This document shows positions 2,993 to 15,652 of a stretch of DNA of 17,882 nucleotides, in pieces. The stretch's first letter is position 1. Each line of letters starts with the position of its first letter. Origin of the DNA: a bacterium (GTDB taxonomy: Bacteria; JAHJDO01); the NCBI GenBank assembly GCA_030611945.1, contig JAUWOV010000036.1, positions 1 to 17,882 on the forward strand, read 5' to 3'. The notes beneath the pieces are model-generated. The model was not told where the DNA came from and did not search any database. It saw nothing but the letters and a program-made list of their open reading frames with translations. The position numbers were made by a program, and so were the translations under genes.

Positions 2993-3982
2993 CTACTTTT
3001 CAACTATAGTCTCTTCAATCTTCATTCCAAAATGCCTGCCTGATTTCTCTGTGTGCCCAAGCACTTCATCTCCTGGCTTCAAGCTGACGACAGAAACTGG
3101 TTTTCCTTGCGGAGTTACTAATCTTATTGTTTCTGCATTTTGCAGGACAAGTGATACTTTCTGTTTGCTACAGGTTCCTTCCACAAGAAGCATAGGCCTT
3201 TTCTCAATCTTTATTCTACCAACAATTACATCCTGCGTTTTTCCTTCCCAGTTTACAATCAGCGCCTTATCCCCTGCTTTAAGATCCGAAAGATACCGTG
3301 TTTTTCCCTCTGTAACCATCACATATGCATGCACTCCCCCTGCATTTACACGAAAAGGTCTCTGGTCAACATATGGATTTTCTACTGATTCCGAATGCAA
3401 GAGAAACATGCCTGAGCTCGTATTGCCAACCAGCATTCCTTCTCCGATGATCATATTGGTGCATGTATCTATGCAAACCCTATCTCCAGTTCCTAATGGT
3501 TTTACAGACTTGATCTTTATTGTCTTGAGTGATATCAAATTTTTCTTTACTTTTAGCTGATTAATTACTTTTCTTAATTCAGCAGGTTTTTTTATATTCA
3601 GCAAAACGCCGTCTACTCCTTTTTCAAGAGTGTTCAGCGCCAACTCTGCTTCTTCTAAATTTCTTACCTCCGCTATCAAGCCTTTTGTTTGAGCAATAAG
3701 ATTTTCCATAGGAATAATCTTCCAGTCATGTGTCTTAATAACTATCCATTTATTATGTATTGCTGCCGCTCTGATTTCATCCTCTTTTCCCTTAATCTCT
3801 ATTTGCGCAACATCCTTGCCTATTCGCAGATCTCCGTCCTCAGAAACCGTTTGTATCTTTCCGAGTTCCTTTACCTTCCCGTTAAACCCATTATTAATAA
3901 CAACAAAATCCGCCCCGCATTCCAGAGCTGTAATAACAATCTCTTTATTCCACGGTCTCGCATCTACCCAAACTTGTTTCAT
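2993..3982 (-). CDS. 3-dehydroquinate synthase II (archaeal type)
   Basis: This enzyme (EC 1.4.1.24) performs NAD-dependent oxidative deamination and cyclisation of 2-amino-3,7-dideoxy-D-threo-hept-6-ulosonate to 3-dehydroquinate, feeding the shikimate pathway without DAHP synthase and AroB. The family hallmark is unmistakable: GMLVGNTSSGMFLLHSES followed by VENPYVDQRPFRVNAGG (residues 182-216), plus GTGDRVCIDTC at 164-174. At 329 residues its length is normal for the family. It follows the ADTH synthase gene by 11 bases with a good AAGGAA site, so the two catalysts of the same two-step route are made together. The enzyme is mostly archaeal; scattered bacteria carry it. Its 3' end lies only 8 bases from the stop of the convergent lipoprotein gene, with no obvious terminator between. 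Confidence 0.95.
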   Translation of the reverse strand: MKQVWVDARPWNKEIVITALECGADFVVINNGFNGKVKELGKIQTVSEDGDLRIGKDVAQIEIKGKEDEIRAAAIHNKWIVIKTHDWKIIPMENLIAQTKGLIAEVRNLEEAELALNTLEKGVDGVLLNIKKPAELRKVINQLKVKKNLISLKTIKIKSVKPLGTGDRVCIDTCTNMIIGEGMLVGNTSSGMFLLHSESVENPYVDQRPFRVNAGGVHAYVMVTEGKTRYLSDLKAGDKALIVNWEGKTQDVIVGRIKIEKRPMLLVEGTCSKQKVSLVLQNAETIRLVTPQGKPVSVVSLKPGDEVLGHTEKSGRHFGMKIEETIVEK

Positions 3983-3993
3983 TATTTATTTCC

Positions 3994-4791
3994 TTAATTT
4001 AAAATTCCTAACGCTTCCTCTACAGAGACATCTTCATGAACAATTTTGCATATTGCCTCAACCATCTTTTTTGGGCACTTATGCTGAAACGCATTTCTGC
4101 CGATAGAAACCCCTGCTCCGCCTGCTTCCAGTGAGTTTTTAACATTTTCAAGCACTTCGCTGTCATTAGACGCTTTTTCTCCACCTGCAATAACTACCGG
4201 TATCGGGCATCCTTCAACAACCTCAGAAAAAGTCTCCTTTGAACCTGTGTATGTAACCTTAACAATATCTGCTCCTAATTCTGCCGCAATCCTCGCTGCA
4301 TGTTTAACCCCTTCAACATCTGACTCGCTCTTGACCTTTTTCCCTCGCGCATACATCATTGCAATAAGAGGCATACCCCAGTTCATACATGCAACGCTGA
4401 CACTGCCAAGATCCCTCAGCATCTCTGCCTCGTTCTCAGCCCCAATATTTATATGAACAGATACTCCATCAGCGCCCATTTTCAGAGCATTTTCAACTGT
4501 GTTCACCAGAACCTTTGCGTTCGGGTCAGGACTCCACACAGTACTGCCTGAAAGGTGTAGAATTAACCCTATATCCTTACCATGTCGTCTATGACCATGC
4601 TTGGGAAGACCAATATGTCCCAAAACTGCATTTGCGCCGCCTTCAGCAATGTCATTCACCATATCCCGCATATTCTCAATTCCCTTGATTGGTCCTACAG
4701 TTACACCATGATCCATTGGCACAATAACGGTTTTTCCACTGTTTCTATCAATTATCCTCTCTAAACGTATACTCTTTCCTAATCTGGACAT
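3994..4791 (-). CDS. 2-amino-3,7-dideoxy-D-threo-hept-6-ulosonate (ADTH) synthase, class I aldolase fold
   Basis: This is the first step of the archaeal aromatic route (EC 2.2.1.10): L-aspartate semialdehyde is joined to a three-carbon unit from 6-deoxy-5-ketofructose 1-phosphate. The 265-residue TIM barrel is of the DhnA/FbaB type. Asp27 (PMDHGV), Tyr147 (MMYARG) and Schiff-base Lys178 (DIVKVTYTG) match the catalytic Asp33, Tyr153 and Lys184 known for Methanocaldococcus MJ0400, with a constant offset of six. A class I fructose-bisphosphate aldolase is the alternative, but the adjacent 3-dehydroquinate synthase II decides the call. The start has AAGGAG 8 bases upstream, and the gene has its own near-consensus promoter. 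Confidence 0.92.
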
Positions 4792-4858: not shown

Positions 4859-5788
4859 TCATAATCCTGCCAGTCTAAGAATTTTATGACAAATTGAATC
4901 AATTTCCTCATCTGCATCACTTGTTTCTATCCACTTAATCCGAGAATCCTTATTGAACCATGTCATTTGTCTTTTTGCAAAATGGCGTGTGTTTCTCTTG
5001 AGAAGCACTTTTGCTTCATTGAGACTACAATGTCCGTTTATATATTCCAGAACTTCTTTATATCCCAAACTCCGCATAGGCAAAAGGTCTTGGCTATATC
5101 CTTTTTTTATAAGCTGCCTAACTTCTCCTGTGAATCCCTTTTTGAACATCAAATCCACTCTGCTCTCAATTTTCCCATAGAGATTTTTACGTTCCGTCTT
5201 AAGACCTATTATACAATATCTACAATCTATGGACTTGGCTTTAGCTTTACTCTGAAGACTTGAAATAGTCTCTCCTGTTGAGAAAAAAACTTCCAGAGCT
5301 CTGATTATTCTTCTCCAGTCATTTGGATGAATCCTTGCTGCAGCTATAGGGTCAACTTTTGCAAGCTTTTCATGCATATAACGGGAACCCTTATCTGCCA
5401 GCTGAGTTCTTACTCTTTTTCTAACAGTCTCTTTGACCATAGGTTCAGAGAAAAGACCATCAATTACAGCTCTTATATATAAACCTGAGCCTCCGACAAG
5501 TATTGGAGTTTTGCCTGAGTTAATAATTTTGTTTATTTTATCTCTTGCCATTTTTGCATATTCCCCTGCGCTGAAATATTGATCAGGAGAAATAATACCT
5601 ATCATGTGATGAGTAACCGCTCTTCTCTCTTCTCTTGAGGGTTTTGCCGTTCCAATATTCATGTATTTATATACTTGCATGGAATCTGCTGATACAATTT
5701 CCGACGGAAAGAATGTAGAAAGGCTTACAGCAATTTTACTTTTGCCTACACCTGTAGGGCCTACAAGGACTATAATGGAGGGATTCAT
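4859..5788 (-). CDS. miaA: tRNA dimethylallyltransferase
   Basis: MiaA (EC 2.5.1.75) transfers a dimethylallyl group to N6 of adenosine 37 in tRNAs reading UNN codons. The P-loop GPTGVGKS is at residues 10-17, SADSMQVYKYMNIGTAK at 33-49 supplies the catalytic Asp35, and VGGSGLYIRAVIDG and the RNTRHFAKRQMTWF block near the C-terminus are family signatures. At 309 residues it is complete. Its ATG overlaps the stop of the preceding kinase gene in a 4-base ATGA, so the two are translationally coupled. The C-terminal ISRIKW-like region (SRIKWIET) is also typical. The assignment is secure. Confidence 0.97.
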   Translation of the reverse strand: MNPSIIVLVGPTGVGKSKIAVSLSTFFPSEIVSADSMQVYKYMNIGTAKPSREERRAVTHHMIGIISPDQYFSAGEYAKMARDKINKIINSGKTPILVGGSGLYIRAVIDGLFSEPMVKETVRKRVRTQLADKGSRYMHEKLAKVDPIAAARIHPNDWRRIIRALEVFFSTGETISSLQSKAKAKSIDCRYCIIGLKTERKNLYGKIESRVDLMFKKGFTGEVRQLIKKGYSQDLLPMRSLGYKEVLEYINGHCSLNEAKVLLKRNTRHFAKRQMTWFNKDSRIKWIETSDADEEIDSICHKILRLAGL

Positions 5789-6576
5789 CTATTTATATCT
5801 AAAACCAATTCTCCTACGCTCTGGTACCTTTTTGCAAGATCAAGATTAAGAGCTCTTAGAATAATATTTTCAAGACCCTTAGACACCTTCTGATTATAAA
5901 ATCGTGGTGGTTTAATAAGCATATTCAGTTGCTGAACAGCAATTTTATGTAAAGAGTTTCCCTCAAACGGTCTCCTGCCTGTTGCAAGTTCATATATAAC
6001 AACACCTAGAGAGTAAATATCGGATCTCTCATCTCCTCTATATCCTTTCACTTGTTCGGGAGACATATAATGCGGCGTACCAGCCCTCTCTCTAATCCTT
6101 GCATTAGACTTGTTTTTTTCATAAGCCAAACCAAAATCTATTATTTTCACATCCATATCCTTTGTCAAAATCATATTTCTGCTTTTTATGTCCTGATGGA
6201 TAATGCCCCTTTTGTGAATATATCCAACTGTCTCGCATACACCAAGAATTATATCAATATAATCTTTTAAGAGATTATGATGCGTTTTTATCAGCTCTCT
6301 GAGATTGTGTCCGTCAAAATATTCCAGCACAATATAACAAATATCATCTTCTCTGCCAAAGCCATACACTTTAGAGATATTTTTATGATTTAATTTCTGA
6401 ATTATCTCGGCTTCATAAAAAAATCTATTGATACGCCTCTTGTCAGTATCCGGTTTTACTTGCAGTATTTTGATTACTACATTTCTCTTGTCTTTAGTCC
6501 CTAAATAAACATCTGTAAGACCGGTAGAAGCAAGATGTTTACTTATTTTGTATCCTGATATGTATGTTCCAATCAT
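5785..6576 (-). CDS. Hanks-type Ser/Thr protein kinase, catalytic domain only
   Basis: A single bacterial Ser/Thr kinase domain fills all 263 residues, with no transmembrane segment, PASTA or other sensor domain. Seen in order: a glycine loop that is degenerate (LASTGLTDVYLG), the ATP-anchoring Lys36 (VVIKIL), helix-C Glu55, a catalytic loop HQDIKSRN with Asp129, Lys131 and Asn134, DFG at 147-149, GTPHYMSPEQ at 166-175 and DIYSLGVVIYELATGRRPF. HQD replaces the common HRD, so it is a non-RD kinase and may not need activation-loop phosphorylation. It should be catalytically active and cytoplasmic. It is sandwiched between rfaE2 (3 bases upstream) and miaA (4-base overlap), an unusual placement; targets cannot be guessed. 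Confidence 0.93.
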   Translation of the reverse strand: MIGTYISGYKISKHLASTGLTDVYLGTKDKRNVVIKILQVKPDTDKRRINRFFYEAEIIQKLNHKNISKVYGFGREDDICYIVLEYFDGHNLRELIKTHHNLLKDYIDIILGVCETVGYIHKRGIIHQDIKSRNMILTKDMDVKIIDFGLAYEKNKSNARIRERAGTPHYMSPEQVKGYRGDERSDIYSLGVVIYELATGRRPFEGNSLHKIAVQQLNMLIKPPRFYNQKVSKGLENIILRALNLDLAKRYQSVGELVLDINR

Positions 6577-8522: not shown

Positions 8523-9422
8523 CTAATTATGATTATTCTTTATAAGCTTTTCTAAATATCTTTTCCCCTCTACATAAGCAGTATTTGGATCATCTACGAT
8601 ATTAACTTCTATATCTAAAGCCTCTTCATAACCGACTTCATTGAAAGCACGCAATGCCTTATCCCATTCGATTTTCCCCTTTGGAGGCATCCAATGGTCA
8701 TCTACGCATCCATCGTTATCGCAAATATGAGTTCCAAAAATCCGTTTTCCTAATTTATATACAGCTACATGCACGGGTTCCTTCTGAACAAAAATATGGC
8801 CTGTATCCAGTATAAAACCAAGATTAGGATTATTATCAAGGCAAGAAAGAAGACGCAAAAAACTATCAGTTGTACAAATCACACCATAAGGAACCGCCTC
8901 AATTGCAAGCTTCATACCCGCATCCTGTACAATTTTTAAACATTGACTGGTGGTATCCACATAAGTGTCCCACGCCCTCTCCCAATTCACTCCTGAAGGA
9001 GAGTCAATAACAGGTTGAATAGCTCCAGGATATGTCTCGTAATAATCAGAGATTAATTCAGTAGACGGGGCGGCAGGAATATTAAAAACCTCGACAATCC
9101 CAAGCTTTTGGCAAATTTCAACCAGTTTTTTCAATTCTTCCAGCCCCTGATTAATTCGTTTTTTGTCTAAACTAGAAATATCTGTCTTCGCGGAATGAGC
9201 AATAAACTGGCTGCTTTCCATTTCTAAGTTCTCGTAGTGATCGTGAATTCAAGAGATGTTTTCATTAGTATAGATTTCTATTTGTTCTTTTGAATATGTC
9301 TCCAACTGGAAGCCGCAAAATCCCATATCTTTTCCCATCGAAACAAGCTGAAGTATTCTTTTAAGTGTTATATGCTCACCAAAATGAGCAAAACCAAAGG
9401 CTGGACTAAGCCCGATTTGCAT
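8523..9422 (-). pseudogene. Xylose isomerase-like (AP endonuclease 2 family) sugar isomerase/epimerase, interrupted by in-frame TGA
   Basis: The full frame starts at an ATG at 9422 with an AGGGGGA ribosome site, reads MQIGLSPAFGFAHFGEH for a normal TIM-barrel opening, then meets TGA at codon 58 (9251-9249). The same frame continues with IHDHYENLEMESSQFIAHSA to a TAG at 8523. There is no frameshift: both parts are in register and together make about 299 residues, a normal length. Metal-site residues all lie after the stop: Glu175 (AIEAVP), Asp206 and His209 (ILDTGH), His232 and Glu272 (LDIEV), in full-length numbering. A start at 9221 (232 residues) would lose the first two barrel strands and has no good ribosome site. 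CGA (Arg) to TGA is the likely lesion. Alternatives are a sequencing error or recoding. Intact relatives convert aldose and ketose sugars or epimerise them. Confidence 0.75.
9249..9251 (-). other. In-frame TGA codon in the isomerase gene
   Basis: This is codon 58 of the full-length frame; the flanking codons read ENIS-stop-IHDHYEN. Other genes in the window end in TGA, so TGA is not generally a sense codon here. Confidence 0.85.
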
Positions 9423-9436
9423 TTTTCCCCCTTTAT

Positions 9437-10459
9437 TTAGTTTGTATGCGAAACTTCTACCAAAATATCTATGTTTTCAGGGGGAGTATTCTCATTCATT
9501 CCTCCTCCTGCAGAAAGCATAAATCCTTTCCCATTTTTACTTGAGGCAATACATTCTCTTGCTGCCAGTTTAACTTTATCATGATCGCCTGATTGCATTA
9601 CTTTAACCGGGCATAAATTCCCCAAGATACAGCAGTGACCACCTATTTGCAACAGTGCCTGTGCTAAATCCGTTGTTGGGCCTATATTGAAAACATCTAT
9701 TCCCGTCTGCCCAATTAATTCTATGACATGGTCGGATTTAGTATCACAATGAAAGACCATGATATGATCTTTAAAATATTCCCTTATCCTGCAATGATAA
9801 GGGAAAAGAAATTTCTTATATATATCCGGCGATATAAGACCTGAAATATCATCAGTTAACAAAATACCCTCTGCTTCCGACAGCACATCTTTTTGTGCCT
9901 CCAACCAGATAATTATACTTTGAGTAGCTTTCTCCAGTAATGCATTAGCCAAATTGGGTTTTAAATATAAATTAACCAAAAAATTATTTAGTCCCCAGAG
10001 ATGAGAAGCTAACTCGCCAGGCCCATTACTGTGAAGAAAATGAAGATTGTCAGTAAATTCTCTTCTTTCTCTAAACGTCTTTAACGTTTTCAGATACCAT
10101 GGCATTAACCCGTCTTCTTTTGGATTAGGAATATTTAATGTTTCAATGTCCTTGTCTTTTTTAATAACGTACTGCTTTACCTGAGGCATAGTATCTCTTT
10201 GCCAAGAAATAACACCACCAAAACTACCAAATAATCCTGCCCCATAATCAGGCCAGCAACCTGGAATAAACAATACCTCAGGAAACCTTTTAAATGCCTG
10301 TAATTCAACTTCTATTAGTTTCTCAGGATTGTACAAGCACTCAAAGAGCTCCACGCCAGCCAAAGAGGCAAAAAAACGAGGTGTGCCTAATAGAGCCACC
10401 GGAACAGAATCGATCTCTTTATGTTTTACTGAATTTAGGAAACGTTCCCAGGCATTCAT
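9437..10459 (-). CDS. Uroporphyrinogen decarboxylase / MtaA-like family protein
   Basis: This is a 340-residue TIM barrel of the UroD superfamily. It lacks the paired N-terminal arginines expected of true heme-pathway UroD and instead resembles the methyltransferase-like branch (MtaA, CmuA and many uncharacterised members). Candidate zinc ligands are His237 and Cys238 in MVFHCDTKSD and Cys283 in LGNLCPVKV; GFMLSAGGGMNENTPPENI near the end is the typical last loop. Members of this branch are often found in sugar-degradation clusters of PVC-type bacteria with AP2-type isomerases, and the reaction is unknown there. Methyl-group removal is one idea, but no corrinoid protein is visible in the window. 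It sits 14 bases upstream of the isomerase and 12 bases after the cupin. Confidence 0.8.
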   Translation of the reverse strand: MNAWERFLNSVKHKEIDSVPVALLGTPRFFASLAGVELFECLYNPEKLIEVELQAFKRFPEVLFIPGCWPDYGAGLFGSFGGVISWQRDTMPQVKQYVIKKDKDIETLNIPNPKEDGLMPWYLKTLKTFRERREFTDNLHFLHSNGPGELASHLWGLNNFLVNLYLKPNLANALLEKATQSIIIWLEAQKDVLSEAEGILLTDDISGLISPDIYKKFLFPYHCRIREYFKDHIMVFHCDTKSDHVIELIGQTGIDVFNIGPTTDLAQALLQIGGHCCILGNLCPVKVMQSGDHDKVKLAARECIASSKNGKGFMLSAGGGMNENTPPENIDILVEVSHTN

Positions 10460-10471
10460 ATTTCACCTACT

Positions 10472-10837
10472 TTATTTTCCGTTATCATAACTTCCTTGCA
10501 CCACAGACGGGCTGAAAACATAAAAAACTTTCAAATCTTTATCAGTTGTTGCTTCAAGAGAATGTTCAACCCCTTTTGGTACAAACATAAATGTCCCTCC
10601 CTTAATTCGTTCTGGTTTCCCCTCAAAATACATATTCCCCTCACCTTCAAGAACATATAATATCTCTTCTTCTTTTTCATGCACATGAGAAGGAGCATGA
10701 GCATTACCGGGAAAAACAGCCACTCCTGCGCACATATTTTTTGTTCCCATATTATCAGGTCTTACGACCATTTTGTGCTTACGTCCGGGGAGAGCTTTCG
10801 TTATAACTTTACTTTCGTGAATGGTAAATCTTTGCAT
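10472..10837 (-). CDS. Small cupin-domain protein
   Basis: A single cupin barrel of 121 residues. Motif 1 runs GNAHAPSHVHEKEEEILYVLEGEG (given in parts: PSHVH at 49-53, EEE at 56-58, LEG at 63-65), with metal-ligand candidates His51, His53 and Glu57 or Glu58. Motif 2 is FVPKGVEHS with His92. All four canonical metal ligands are therefore present, so it probably binds a metal and could be an isomerase or epimerase for sugars, or a sugar-binding regulator. It has an excellent AAGGAGTGA ribosome site and begins 4 bases after the transketolase C half ends, so it belongs to the same operon. The substrate is unknown; its place between the transketolase and UroD genes suggests action on a short-chain sugar product. 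Confidence 0.8.
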   Translation of the reverse strand: MQRFTIHESKVITKALPGRKHKMVVRPDNMGTKNMCAGVAVFPGNAHAPSHVHEKEEEILYVLEGEGNMYFEGKPERIKGGTFMFVPKGVEHSLEATTDKDLKVFYVFSPSVVQGSYDNGK

Positions 10838-10841
10838 AAAG

Positions 10842-11780
10842 TCACTCCTTTTTATTTAATAAACTTTTAGTTTGTTTGACAATATTTTCAACTGTTAATC
10901 CTGCTCGCTGCAGTAATGATTGATGACTTCCAGAGTCACTAAAGTAATCTGATACACCAAGTATTTTCATTGGCACAGGACATTTTTGAGAAACAACCTC
11001 AGCTATTGCGCTTCCAAGACCTCCATAAATATTATGTTCTTCAACTGTCATTACAGCGCCACATTTTTTAGCCATGGAAATTACTGCTTTCTCAGGAATA
11101 GGTTTTACTGAAATAATATCATGAACAGTAACTGATATGCCCTCTTTTTCAAGTAAATCTGCTGCTACAACAGCCATATGAGATGTAAAACCATTACTGA
11201 AAATAACTATATCATTCCCATCCTTAAGCCGATTCCCGCTTAAGACATCCACCTCAGAAGCTTTAGAATAAATAACAGGTTCATTATCACGAAGCACACG
11301 TATATAAACAGGCCCTTTGTGTTGAGCCGCCCATAAAACACATGCTTTACAAGAGGTAGCATCTGAAGGAGCTAATATTGTCATATTTGGAAGACCTCGC
11401 ATAGTATTAATGTCGGCAATGCATTGATGAGTGGGACCATTTTCCCCAGTACAAAGCCCCCCATACGGTGCGCCAATTTTTACGTTCATATTGCCGATAC
11501 AGATAGATGTTCTTATTTGTTCGCAGGGGCGCATACTTGCAAAAACCGCTAATGTTGTAGCAAACGGAATCTTACCGCAGCTAGCAAGTCCTGCAGCAAA
11601 ACTCATCATATTCTGTTCTGCTATTCCCATATTGAAAAAACGGTCGGGAAATTTCTCGGCAAATAAAGATGTCTTAGTTGCCTTGGACAGATCACAGTCA
11701 AGGACAACCACATTCTTATTTTTTTGCCCAATCTCTACAAGCGATTCACCATAAGCGCTTCGCATAGAAGCTGTCTGCAT
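10842..11780 (-). CDS. Transketolase C-terminal half, second pair (divergent active site)
   Basis: This 312-residue protein is the pyrimidine-binding and C-terminal part of a split ThDP enzyme; it should act with the N half encoded just upstream (35-base overlap). The catalytic Glu55 is in MGIAEQN. The substrate region differs from ordinary transketolases: where E. coli TktA has His461 and Asp469 in THDSIGLGEDGPTHQ, this protein reads APYGGLCTGENGPTHQ, giving Tyr106 and Asn114. His118 and Arg164 (equivalent to His473 and Arg520) remain. Those swaps should change recognition of the phosphate and of the C2 hydroxyl. The start at 11780 has AAAGGATATGGAA upstream; a Met six codons later has none. 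DXS-like activity is less likely because of the pairing and length. Confidence 0.88.
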   Translation of the reverse strand: MQTASMRSAYGESLVEIGQKNKNVVVLDCDLSKATKTSLFAEKFPDRFFNMGIAEQNMMSFAAGLASCGKIPFATTLAVFASMRPCEQIRTSICIGNMNVKIGAPYGGLCTGENGPTHQCIADINTMRGLPNMTILAPSDATSCKACVLWAAQHKGPVYIRVLRDNEPVIYSKASEVDVLSGNRLKDGNDIVIFSNGFTSHMAVVAADLLEKEGISVTVHDIISVKPIPEKAVISMAKKCGAVMTVEEHNIYGGLGSAIAEVVSQKCPVPMKILGVSDYFSDSGSHQSLLQRAGLTVENIVKQTKSLLNKKE

Positions 11781-12600
11781 TTTCCATATCCTTTTTCATT
11801 TGTTTACATTTCTCAGCCAGTTTATCTCTATCCATCAAACTATGCCACAGATAATCATTCTCCATAAAACTCACACCCTTGCCTTTAATGGTATTAGCTA
11901 TGATTACAGTCGGAACTTCTTTAGTATTTCTTGCTTTTTCAAAAGCGGGAAGGATCTCATTTATATTATGTCCATCAATCTCAATAACATTCCAATTGAA
12001 ACCTTTCCACCTTTTAACCATTGAACCGGGTGAAAGAACCTCATCAACGCTGCCGTCAAATTGAAGGCGATTATAATCAACAATAGCTAACAAATTATCA
12101 AGTTTAAAATGTGAAGCGCACATTACAGATTCCCAGACCTGTCCTTCGTTCATCTCCCCACAGCCCAGCATTACATATGTCCTGTAGAATTTTCTATCAA
12201 TTTTAGCAGCCACTGCCATACCTGCTCCAACAGATAATCCCTGTCCTAAACATCCGCTTGTCATGTCTATACCCGAGGTATGAATTTCAGGATGACCTTG
12301 AAGAAAGCTTCCTGCTTTGCGCAGTGTTTTTAATTTCTTAACGGGAAACACTCCCCGCCGCGCTAGTGCCGCATATAACACAGGACAGGCATGACCTTTA
12401 GAGAGAATAAACCTATCCCGATCCGGCCAATCAGGTTCCTCCGGACGAATGTTCATCTCTTTAAAATATAGACAGGTTATTATATCCGCGGCAGATAAAC
12501 AGCCTCCTGGATGACCTGAACCGGCATTAGATATCATTCGCACAACATCATAACGCAAAAGCTGCGCCCATCGTTCCAATTCTTTTGTTTTATCTATCAT
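11746..12600 (-). CDS. Transketolase N-terminal half, second pair, with GCG in place of GDG
   Basis: This 284-residue ThDP-diphosphate-binding half has SGHPGG (His30), LSKGHACPVLY (His70), QGHPE (His103) and MENDYLWHS (His253), all matching transketolase active-site histidines. The metal motif GDG reads LGCGEMNEG here: Cys147 takes the place of the Mg-binding Asp, while Glu152 and Asn177 (DYNRLQFDG) remain. It begins in a 4-base ATGA overlap with the stop of the previous C half, and its own 3' end overlaps the next C half by 35 bases, so the four transketolase genes are tightly coupled. It is clearly a paralogue of the N half at 13559-14395, roughly half the residues matching by eye. Confidence 0.9.
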   Translation of the reverse strand: MIDKTKELERWAQLLRYDVVRMISNAGSGHPGGCLSAADIITCLYFKEMNIRPEEPDWPDRDRFILSKGHACPVLYAALARRGVFPVKKLKTLRKAGSFLQGHPEIHTSGIDMTSGCLGQGLSVGAGMAVAAKIDRKFYRTYVMLGCGEMNEGQVWESVMCASHFKLDNLLAIVDYNRLQFDGSVDEVLSPGSMVKRWKGFNWNVIEIDGHNINEILPAFEKARNTKEVPTVIIANTIKGKGVSFMENDYLWHSLMDRDKLAEKCKQMKKDMENADSFYAKRLW

Positions 12601-13556
12601 CTTTTCTTCTTTTTTCTGCCTACTACTTTAAAACAGCCAGAGATAATATCATCTACAGACATTTTGTATTTTTTGAGAAGTAATTCATACTCTCCTGATT
12701 CAGCAAATGTATTTCGAAGTCCGATTCTCTGAATTGGAATAGGATAGTTTTCACCTAGAAATTCCGAAACAGCGCTTCCAAGTCCACATTCAACCTGATG
12801 GTCTTCAACTGTAACTACTCCTCCTGTTTTTCTTACAGAATCAAGAATAATAGACTCATCTAAAGGTTTAATTGTATGCATATCAATGACTTCCGCCAAA
12901 ATTCCCTGTTTTGAAAGAATATCCCTAGCATCCAAAGCCTTTGAAACCATATCTCCAATGGCAATTATAGTAATATCCTTTCCTTCGCGTAAAAGTATCC
13001 CTTTCCCTATTTTAAAGCTTGTTTCTTCATTATAGATTACAGGAACCCCATCTCTTGTAAGACGTAAATAAATAGGTCCATCCCATTGTGTTGCTGCAAT
13101 AACCAATTCCCTTGTTGAGACTGCATCAGCAGGCATAATAACAGTCATTCCAGGGATTGTTCTCATTATGCCGAGATCCTCGGTTGCCTGATGAGTAACC
13201 CCATCGTTTGCTGGGGTAATTCCTCCATGGCTTACACATATCTTTACATTCACATGTGGATAAGCCACAAAAGTGCGCACTTGTTCACATGCCCGCATAC
13301 TTGCAAAAACTGCATAGGTAGAAACAAATACAATTTTCCCACAGGATGCTGCGCCTGCAGCTATCGCCATCTCATTTTGTTCCGCAACTCCAATATTAAA
13401 ATAACGTTCAGGAAATTCTTTACCAAATATTGCGCTTCGGGTGCTTTTGCCAATATCTGCTTCAAAAACAACAATTTGATCATTCTTCCGCCCAAGTTCC
13501 ACCAAAGTATCTCCATAAGCATTACGCGTTGGAATAGAATCGCCTAATTTATACAT
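12597..13556 (-). CDS. Transketolase C-terminal half, first pair
   Basis: This 319-residue partner of the N half begins 2 bases before it in the map (2-base gap). It opens GDSIPTRNAYGDTL, has the catalytic Glu59 in GVAEQNE, and keeps the standard substrate residues: VSHGGITPANDGVTHQ has His110, Asp118 and His122, matching His461, Asp469 and His473 of E. coli TktA, and Arg168 in LTRDGVPVIY matches Arg520. So this half looks like an ordinary transketolase acting on phosphorylated sugars. The C-terminus ends in a run of basic residues (GRKKKKR) produced by an A/G-rich stretch, which also supplies the ribosome site for the next gene. Confidence 0.92.
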   Translation of the reverse strand: MYKLGDSIPTRNAYGDTLVELGRKNDQIVVFEADIGKSTRSAIFGKEFPERYFNIGVAEQNEMAIAAGAASCGKIVFVSTYAVFASMRACEQVRTFVAYPHVNVKICVSHGGITPANDGVTHQATEDLGIMRTIPGMTVIMPADAVSTRELVIAATQWDGPIYLRLTRDGVPVIYNEETSFKIGKGILLREGKDITIIAIGDMVSKALDARDILSKQGILAEVIDMHTIKPLDESIILDSVRKTGGVVTVEDHQVECGLGSAVSEFLGENYPIPIQRIGLRNTFAESGEYELLLKKYKMSVDDIISGCFKVVGRKKKKR

Positions 13557-13558
13557 AG

Positions 13559-14395
13559 TTATGAACCTCTAATCTCTTCAAGCGCAATTTTAAGCTGTTC
13601 ATCATCAGGAGCAAGTCCATGCCAATCAACCTTATTTTCCATAAAACTTACTCCCTTTCCTTTTATTGTATCTGCAACAATTACTGTAGGTTTATTATGT
13701 GTTTCACGCGCTTTTGCAAATGCTTTAATAATTTGATTAAAGTCATGACCATTAGTTCTTATTACATTCCAGTTAAATGCCTCCAATTTATCTACGATGG
13801 GTTCAAGTGGCATTACTTCGTCATTATCTCCATCAAGCTGAAGTTTGTTATAGTCAATAATTACGACCAAATTGTCCAGCTTAAACTTGGTCCCTGCCAT
13901 GAACGCTTCCCACACTATACCTTCATCTAATTCCCCGCAACCCAGCATTACATATACACGAAAATCCTTTTTATCCAATTTACCCATAAGCGCCATGCCA
14001 ATACCTATAGACAAACCGTTTCCAAGTGAACCTGTAGTAAAATCCACTCCCGGAGTTTTTTTCATATCAGGATGTCCTTGAAGCCGACTGTTTATTTTTC
14101 GGAGAGTTGCAAGCTCTTCAATTGGGAAAAATCCTTTCATGGCCAGAACGGAATAGAGGACAGGGCAGGCATGCCCTTTTGAAAGAATAAACCTGTCTCT
14201 GTCGGGATCTCTTTGGTTATCCAGATTAATGCGCATTTCATGACAATAAAGCGTCGTAATTATTTCCGCTGCTGACAATGCGCCTCCAGGGTGTCCTGAC
14301 TGTGCAGCATGAATCATCTTGAGAATATTTATCCTCAACTCTGTTGCTTTCTCTTCTAAAAAACTTACTAAATTTTTATTGATTGTATCAACCAT
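13559..14395 (-). CDS. Transketolase N-terminal half, first pair, with GCG in place of GDG
   Basis: This 278-residue split transketolase N half has SGHPGG (His35), LSKGHACPVLY (His75), QGHPD (His108), GSLGNGLSIGIGMAL and KGKGVSFMEN with His259 close behind. The ThDP metal motif is again LGCGELDEG, with Cys153 for the usual Asp, Glu158 retained and Asn183 (DYNKLQLDG) retained. It is probably the first transketolase gene of the operon, 27 bases after the fucosidase stop, with only a weak AGAAG site before ATG. With the C half at 12597 it should form an alpha2beta2 enzyme transferring two-carbon units. Confidence 0.92.
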   Translation of the reverse strand: MVDTINKNLVSFLEEKATELRINILKMIHAAQSGHPGGALSAAEIITTLYCHEMRINLDNQRDPDRDRFILSKGHACPVLYSVLAMKGFFPIEELATLRKINSRLQGHPDMKKTPGVDFTTGSLGNGLSIGIGMALMGKLDKKDFRVYVMLGCGELDEGIVWEAFMAGTKFKLDNLVVIIDYNKLQLDGDNDEVMPLEPIVDKLEAFNWNVIRTNGHDFNQIIKAFAKARETHNKPTVIVADTIKGKGVSFMENKVDWHGLAPDDEQLKIALEEIRGS

Positions 14396-14422: not shown

Positions 14423-15652
14423 TCATACCAATCTTAGCTTAATAACTGTATCGTAAGGGTCTATCTGTTTTTTAGGTAAGTCTTTAAGAAATAAACGCTC
14501 ACCATTCTGAACAACGGAAACTTTCTCGCCCGTGGCCAAGAGATGAGCTGATTTTATCTTTCTCTTAACCGGTGCAATACATATTTCTTTCCCAGGACAT
14601 CTAAAAACATGGAGATAAACTGTATTTCCCTTAGCAGTAGTTAGCCCGACCATTCCTCCCCTAAATGGAGCACTCCTACATCCATAAATAGACTCACTAT
14701 TCACTTTCATCCATTTTCCAATCTCTTTAAGCCTTTTTACCGAAGGCACAGGTATTGTTCCATCCTGTTTCGGTCCAATATTAAGCAGAAAATTCCCACT
14801 ACTACTTACACAGCGAACCAAGTCCTGAATAAGCTGTCTTGTGGATTTCCAGTTACTATCTGCCTTTGAATATCCCCAGTTATCATTCATCGTCACACAA
14901 GATTCCCATGGTCTATCTGGAGCACGAATTTCCGGAGCAGCTGTTGGAATATATTGTTCTGGAGTAGCAAAATCTTCAGGTAACTTGGAACGGTCATTAA
15001 TTAAAACCTGCGGCTGTAACTTTCTAACCATTTTGTTTAGTTTTTTGGACTGCCAGGCTTCTTGCAAAGTAAAATTATCCCATGCTCCTGGCCTATCAGG
15101 TGGAGGGAGTGGTGCACCGTCATACCACAAAACATCAATTTTTCCATAATTTGACATAAGTTCCTTTACCTGACTATGAACATACTCAACAAGTTTTTTC
15201 CATTCCTTCGGATTCTTCATTGGTCCGTTAAAGAAAGCAGGATATCTCCAGTCACGAAGGGAATAATAGATGCCGATTTTTATCTTGGCTTGCCTGCAGG
15301 CTTCAACAAATTCAGCGACAAAGTCCCTTTTTGAACCGGTTTTCACAGAAGTAAAATCAGATACATTACTATCAAAGAGGGAGAAGCCATCGTGGTGCAT
15401 TGCAGTAAACACAATGTATTTCATTCCAGCTTCTTTTGCCAGGGAACACCATTCATTGACATTAAATTTTCTTGGGCTAAATTTTTTAGCCAATAAGGCA
15501 TACTCCTCCTTTGGAATCTTCTCAAGATCCATTACCCATTCACCCCTGGCGAGGATTGAATAAAGCCCCCAATGAATAAACATCCCAAATCTTGCCTCTC
15601 CAAACCATTTTACCCTTTTCGTTTTCTCTGCTTTCTTCAAATTATTCTCCAT
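14423..15652 (-). CDS. GH29 alpha-L-fucosidase, cytoplasmic
   Basis: This retaining glycosidase is expected to release alpha-L-fucose (EC 3.2.1.51) or a closely related sugar. The family entrance WFGEARFGMFIHWGLYS (residues 16-32), KYIVFTAMHHDGFSLFDS (78-95, His86 and His87), LRDWRYP and the nucleophile Asp178 in DVLWYDGAPL are all present, as is MNDNWGY and NFLLNIGPKQDG further on. At 409 residues it is the catalytic barrel plus a short C-terminal beta domain. There is no signal peptide, so the substrate must be imported first. The start overlaps the stop of the large hydrolase-like gene by 11 bases. Substrate cannot be fixed further; GH29 members also act on methylated or other deoxy sugars. 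Confidence 0.93.
   Translation of the reverse strand: MENNLKKAEKTKRVKWFGEARFGMFIHWGLYSILARGEWVMDLEKIPKEEYALLAKKFSPRKFNVNEWCSLAKEAGMKYIVFTAMHHDGFSLFDSNVSDFTSVKTGSKRDFVAEFVEACRQAKIKIGIYYSLRDWRYPAFFNGPMKNPKEWKKLVEYVHSQVKELMSNYGKIDVLWYDGAPLPPPDRPGAWDNFTLQEAWQSKKLNKMVRKLQPQVLINDRSKLPEDFATPEQYIPTAAPEIRAPDRPWESCVTMNDNWGYSKADSNWKSTRQLIQDLVRCVSSSGNFLLNIGPKQDGTIPVPSVKRLKEIGKWMKVNSESIYGCRSAPFRGGMVGLTTAKGNTVYLHVFRCPGKEICIAPVKRKIKSAHLLATGEKVSVVQNGERLFLKDLPKKQIDPYDTVIKLRLV

Follow-up and report, generated by a model that had tools for sequence, protein, structure and literature searches.

The Asp of the GDG motif is regarded as an invariant hallmark of ThDP enzymes, in which it anchors the metal. Textbook ThDP residues are replaced in some working enzymes, such as glyoxylate carboligase, which lacks the catalytic Glu, and branched-chain E1 alpha, which has Glu in place of the metal Asp. 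We know of no ThDP enzyme with Cys at this metal-ligand position. The closest solved structure to the proteins described here is the split-chain transketolase of Carboxydothermus hydrogenoformans (6YAK), in which the N and C halves are encoded by two genes. Its ion ligands are Asp148, Asn178, and Leu180, together with the diphosphate (PMC7661550). The 6-deoxy-6-sulfofructose transketolase SqwGH also consists of split subunits encoded in a sugar-breakdown cluster (PMC11659671, PMC9594981). In the sulfo-TK pathway, the split transketolase removes two C2 units one after the other (PMC9594981), and SF transketolase subunit G is reported to keep D155 as a metal ligand (PMC11659671).

The window, i.e., the whole stretch of 17,882 nucleotides that was analyzed, carries four adjacent transketolase half-genes on its minus strand (Table 1). 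The transketolase N, pyrimidine, and C domains (PF00456, PF02779, and PF02780) were all detected well over the Pfam cut-offs, and the AlphaFold2 model of TK1-N (pLDDT 92) matched 6YAK with a Z score of 43.8 and an rmsd of 0.9 over 275 residues. The ThDP motif reads VYVMLG-C-GELDEG in TK1-N and TYVMLG-C-GEMNEG in TK2-N, and re-reading of the two Cys codons confirmed the GCG that a preliminary description had reported for both N halves. As had also been proposed there, both Cys residues align with Asp155 of E. coli TktA; they likewise align with the Asp of GDG in 6YAK.

Table 1. Positions of the split transketolase genes, their Cys codons, and neighboring sugar-related genes in the window
Feature	Position	Strand	Evidence and remarks
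Xylose-isomerase-like TIM barrel (sugar isomerase/epimerase), probable pathway member	8523..9221	-	PF01261; relative in L142
UroD/MtaA-like protein	9437..10459	-	PF01208; neighbor also in Pirellulales tandem loci L139 and L140
Small metal-type cupin, HxH...E...H	10472..10837	-	Cupin_2; HxH...E...H read from translation; conserved beside the tandem transketolases; candidate sugar isomerase/epimerase
TK2-C, C half	10842..11780	-	PF02779, PF02780; catalytic Glu kept, Ser385Ala, His461Tyr, Asp469Asn
TK2-N, second split transketolase N half, GCG variant	11746..12600	-	PF00456 1.7e-56; 6YAK E 5.9e-91
TGT codon	12162-12160	-	Cys of TK2-N replacing metal-ligand Asp
TK1-C, transketolase C half	12597..13556	-	PF02779, PF02780; Glu411, Arg358/Ser385/His461/Arg520 equivalents kept
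TK1-N, split transketolase N half (ThDP diphosphate/metal-binding domain), GCG variant	13559..14395	-	PF00456 9.8e-59; 6YAK E 2.2e-94
TGC codon	13939-13937	-	Cys153 of TK1-N replacing metal-ligand Asp (TktA Asp155, 6YAK Asp148)
Alpha-L-fucosidase-family glycoside hydrolase, upstream, same direction	14423..15652	-	PF01120 6.9e-94

In the alignment to TktA, the Asn185 equivalent is kept in both N halves, and Ile187, whose position provides a main-chain metal ligand, is replaced by Leu. 6YAK (54% identity over 275 residues) has the same Asn and Leu metal ligands and the same diphosphate contacts as the window proteins. It differs in that its Asp148 is Cys in both of them and in that the window has two tandem pairs and a cupin. 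Both pairs have the equivalents of His26, His66, His100, His261, His473, Glu160, and the catalytic Glu411, and TK1 and TK2 thus retain the catalytic Glu and the active-site His of a split-chain transketolase. Because the transketolase homology is certain and the signature is broken at one residue, GCG standing in place of the GDG-type motif with the Asn kept, both N halves were filed as a variant. The full-length transketolase of the same genome (G000:C54) has the same catalytic residues and reaction class, but it is a single chain and keeps the Asp (TDG).

The preliminary description had stated that all other ligands and active-site histidines are kept. This holds for the N halves but not for TK2-C, in which the pocket residues are Ala385, Tyr461, and Asn469; in TK1, the phosphate pocket is kept (Arg358, Ser385, His461, and Arg520, plus Asp469). 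Both pocket patterns were found again in the Omnitrophota orthologues. Judged by these residues, TK1 looks like a normal phosphate-handling transketolase, and TK2 looks like a transketolase of altered specificity. The Ser-to-Ala change of TK2 is shared with SqwGH (PMC11659671, PMC9594981), and a distant sulfoquinovose-isomerase-family protein was found in the Omnitrophota and Actinomycetota loci. However, the Asp155/Asn185/Ile187 metal-ligand set of SqwGH is broken by the Cys at 155, and the sulfonate-orienting residues RAFDR are absent: the equivalents of R358, S385, H461, and R520 are R, S, H, and R in TK1 and R, A, Y, and R in TK2, the His position being Asp in RAFDR, His in TK1, and Tyr in TK2. 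SqwI isomerase (PF02502) was not detected among the scanned window genes. As RAFDR, the Asp155 ligand, and SqwI were all missing, classification as a sulfo-TK system was rejected.

The gene order N1-C1-N2-C2-cupin is repeated in L138, an Omnitrophota locus whose four halves and cupin show 72–79% identity to their counterparts in the window. Tandem TK1-TK2 with a cupin was also found in the Pirellulales loci L139 and L140, and L141 contains TK1 and a second N half cut by the contig end; in all, the TK1-TK2 pair occurs in four other genomes (one of them cut by the contig end), with cupins nearby. L032, which shares its contig with L139, carries a fusion of the cupin to TK2-C. The system is represented by positions 10472-14395 of the window, 5102-9490 of L138, and 2261-3610 of L032. 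Cupin relatives were present in the loci of 11 of the 33 Cys rows and 1 of the 68 Asp rows, a contrast that is only indicative given the short flanks of the Asp loci, and the single Asp row is an Asp-bearing TK2 of the same tandem system. UroD-like proteins accompany the window system, L138, L139, and L140, and the surroundings contain xylose-isomerase-like and fucose/arabinose-isomerase-like sugar isomerases, dehydrogenases, and glycoside hydrolases. Both enzymes belong to an accessory carbohydrate-breakdown operon, and the tandem split transketolase pair with the cupin apparently represents an undescribed sugar pathway.

The distribution of the Cys form was examined with a motif pattern allowing any codon at the Asp position; of 385 genomes from across the domain, 154 had matches. 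The matches listed are a sample, read by eye. Among them, Cys was limited to the two window matches and single ones in G231 and G276, and all others had Asp. In this sample, Cys is unusual and not the ordinary residue that the preliminary description had considered for split transketolases. Occurrence of GCG was rare and patchy (1 of the 74 genomes in the phylum of G276), and same-genus split relatives read SDG or GDG. The phylum of the window is represented in the search set by five genomes, all of one genus. Same-genus transketolases (L009, L010, L001, L018, and L020) have Ser or Thr in place of the first Gly of GDG (SDG, TDG) and keep the Asp.

A GTDB scan of approximately 85,000 species for the Cys form yielded 32 stretches, 28 of which were transketolase N-half loci; L033, L034, L038, and L048 were not transketolases and were dropped. 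The scan pattern requires an exact GxGExxEGxxWE, so that Cys forms with other neighboring residues are missed. The Cys records were named as Omnitrophota, Pirellulales, Planctomycetaceae, Actinomycetota, Nitrospinota, Bacteroidales, Ardenticatenia, Bacillota, and Diapherotrites, among others. No GCG match was obtained in viral contigs, and nothing at ≥60% identity was found in plasmids. When the homologues were tabulated at the ligand column, as the preliminary description had proposed, the 102-row alignment contained 68 Asp, 33 Cys, one gap, and no other residue; the Cys rows were gathered by searching for Cys, and their share is not a frequency. Cys153 and Asn183 were invariant among 25 GCG-type N halves chosen for Cys, in which the mean column identity was 58%. 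Literature searches, covering open-access papers only, returned no published account of Cys at the metal-ligand Asp, consistent with the earlier view that it is not a recognized subfamily mark.

TK1-N and TK2-N are only 58% identical to each other, and their orthologues in a separately assembled Omnitrophota MAG also have Cys (75% identical). In a quick tree of 93 N halves, TK1-N fell into a clade of ten sequences from several phyla, all with Cys (SH-aLRT 95), and TK2-N fell into a clade of four, three with Cys and one with Asp (SH-aLRT 100). With weaker support, the two clades combine in a group of 15 sequences, 14 of which have Cys. A single origin of all Cys sequences, forced into one clade, was rejected (AU p 6e-49, quick tree), and the best trees required 10–12 changes, at least four of which are forced by the starred branches. 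The substitution is thus shared and maintained across species, as first described, but it recurs in several independent lineages and is not restricted to the window or to one subfamily as had been implied. The argument drawn earlier from the differing codons is weak alone; the real support comes from cross-species conservation and the tree. That the same rare swap arose separately several times in distant microbes speaks for a functional enzyme whose metal site has changed and against an error.

The Asp codons (GAC/GAT) and the Cys codons (TGC/TGT) are two bases apart, and none of the one-step neighbors of Asp (Asn, Glu, Gly, Ala, and Tyr) occurred among 101 rows or among the matches listed from the 385 genomes. 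We take the two-base gap, together with the lack of one-step residues, as evidence of selection for Cys, with the direction of change not given by the tree. The recurrence of this two-step swap with no third residue seen points to a second evolutionary solution at the metal site.

Thiolates coordinate Mg and Ca poorly, so that the Cys may bind a softer metal or leave its place to water. We lean, with some reservation, toward the reading that TK1 and TK2 are active ThDP split transketolases (alpha2beta2 type) with a changed metal site, thiolate or otherwise, working in tandem and in succession. In the thiolate form of this reading, the ligands of the metal would be Asn, a main-chain carbonyl, the diphosphate, and the cysteine thiolate, and the site would favor a softer divalent metal (Mn, Fe, or Zn) over Mg or Ca. 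A true thiolate site of this kind is possible but doubtful. Alternatively, the thiol would not bind and water would take its place, and because of the poor affinity of thiolates for Mg and Ca, the metal site could simply be weaker. Transketolases of Bacillus methanolicus were reconstituted by Mn, Mg, Co, Ca, and Cu (PMC3905653); as ordinary transketolases accept several metals, a metal shift would need no new chemistry.

TK1, with its normal phosphate pocket, and TK2, with its changed pocket, probably act one after another and may shorten an unusual ketose by two-carbon units, the cupin being a candidate isomerase between the two steps. By analogy with the sulfo-TK pathway (PMC9594981), we infer that two ketol transfers follow each other and are separated by an isomerisation. 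The broader proposition that several lineages swapped Asp for Cys and shifted from Mg/Ca to Fe/Mn/Zn, all within an undescribed tandem-transketolase and cupin pathway, is put forward tentatively.

The alternative that survives best, although it is unlikely, is a tolerated replacement: the enzymes would be ordinary Mg/Ca transketolases with a dispensable Asp, since Asn, the main chain, and the diphosphate would suffice, and Cys would reflect drift of little effect. The scattered occurrence of GCG is consistent with this explanation, as is the presence of either Asp or Cys in TK2 orthologues with identical pocket residues. In L077 (G008:C339:8433-9182), the TK2 orthologue has Asp (GDG) and the adjoining TK1 has Cys; this Asp protein is 74% identical to the Cys protein of L032. 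The TK2 of L077 thus has Asp beside an identical set of pocket residues and indicates that the TK2 reaction can do without Cys, a point against the favored reading. However, drift should have given the one-base replacements before the two-base Cys, and none of them was seen; Cys is also invariant in the TK1 clade. Natural Asp/Cys orthologue pairs (L077 and L032) make the metal choice of ThDP enzymes directly testable, and the Cys form also marks an uncharacterized tandem-transketolase sugar pathway with a linked cupin.

Partners covarying with the Cys were sought at Tyr182, Cys77, Asn191, Ile104, Thr120, and Glu193, and none was significant by independent pairs; Tyr182 and Cys77 were enriched with Cys, but within what shared ancestry explains. 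This lack of a covarying column also counts against the favored reading. A second Cys, in KGHAC and two residues after the diphosphate-contacting His, was present in 28 of 32 Cys rows and 19 of 58 Asp rows. It would fit redox control, in which the thiol holds the metal only when reduced and oxidation or persulfidation switches off cofactor binding, and several source records look like MAGs from anoxic settings, as judged by isolate names only. This second Cys is, however, not significant once ancestry is counted, and four Cys proteins lack it, leaving redox control improbable.

Loss of the textbook metal ligand could also mean that the paralogues are catalytically dead and serve in regulation or as a scaffold. 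Against this, the equivalents of Asn185, Glu411, and the five His residues are kept in both pairs, and the N and C halves stay together across phyla, which makes such a role very improbable. Neither enzyme looks decayed, since only one metal ligand is exchanged and the catalytic Glu and His remain; with the Asn, the main-chain ligand, and the diphosphate contacts also in place, both are most likely active. Sequencing or assembly error might be suspected in a window that is one contig of a 119-contig draft genome, but it is refuted, with negligible probability, since Cys rather than the GAC once envisaged at both sites was found in two window genes and 31 further rows of independent assemblies, with both codons in use (TGC 21, TGT 11, as counted among the 33 GCG rows). 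Together with the divergence of the two genes and the Cys of the independent MAG, this places the substitution beyond chance or assembly error.

Elsewhere in the window, positions 2993-4791 encode 3-dehydroquinate synthase II beside 2-amino-3,7-dideoxy-D-threo-hept-6-ulosonate synthase, a pair that makes up an archaeal-type start of aromatic amino acid synthesis (its first two steps) within a bacterial genome. A stand-alone PknB-like protein kinase of 263 amino acids without PASTA domains is encoded at 5785-6576, directly upstream of miaA with a slight overlap.
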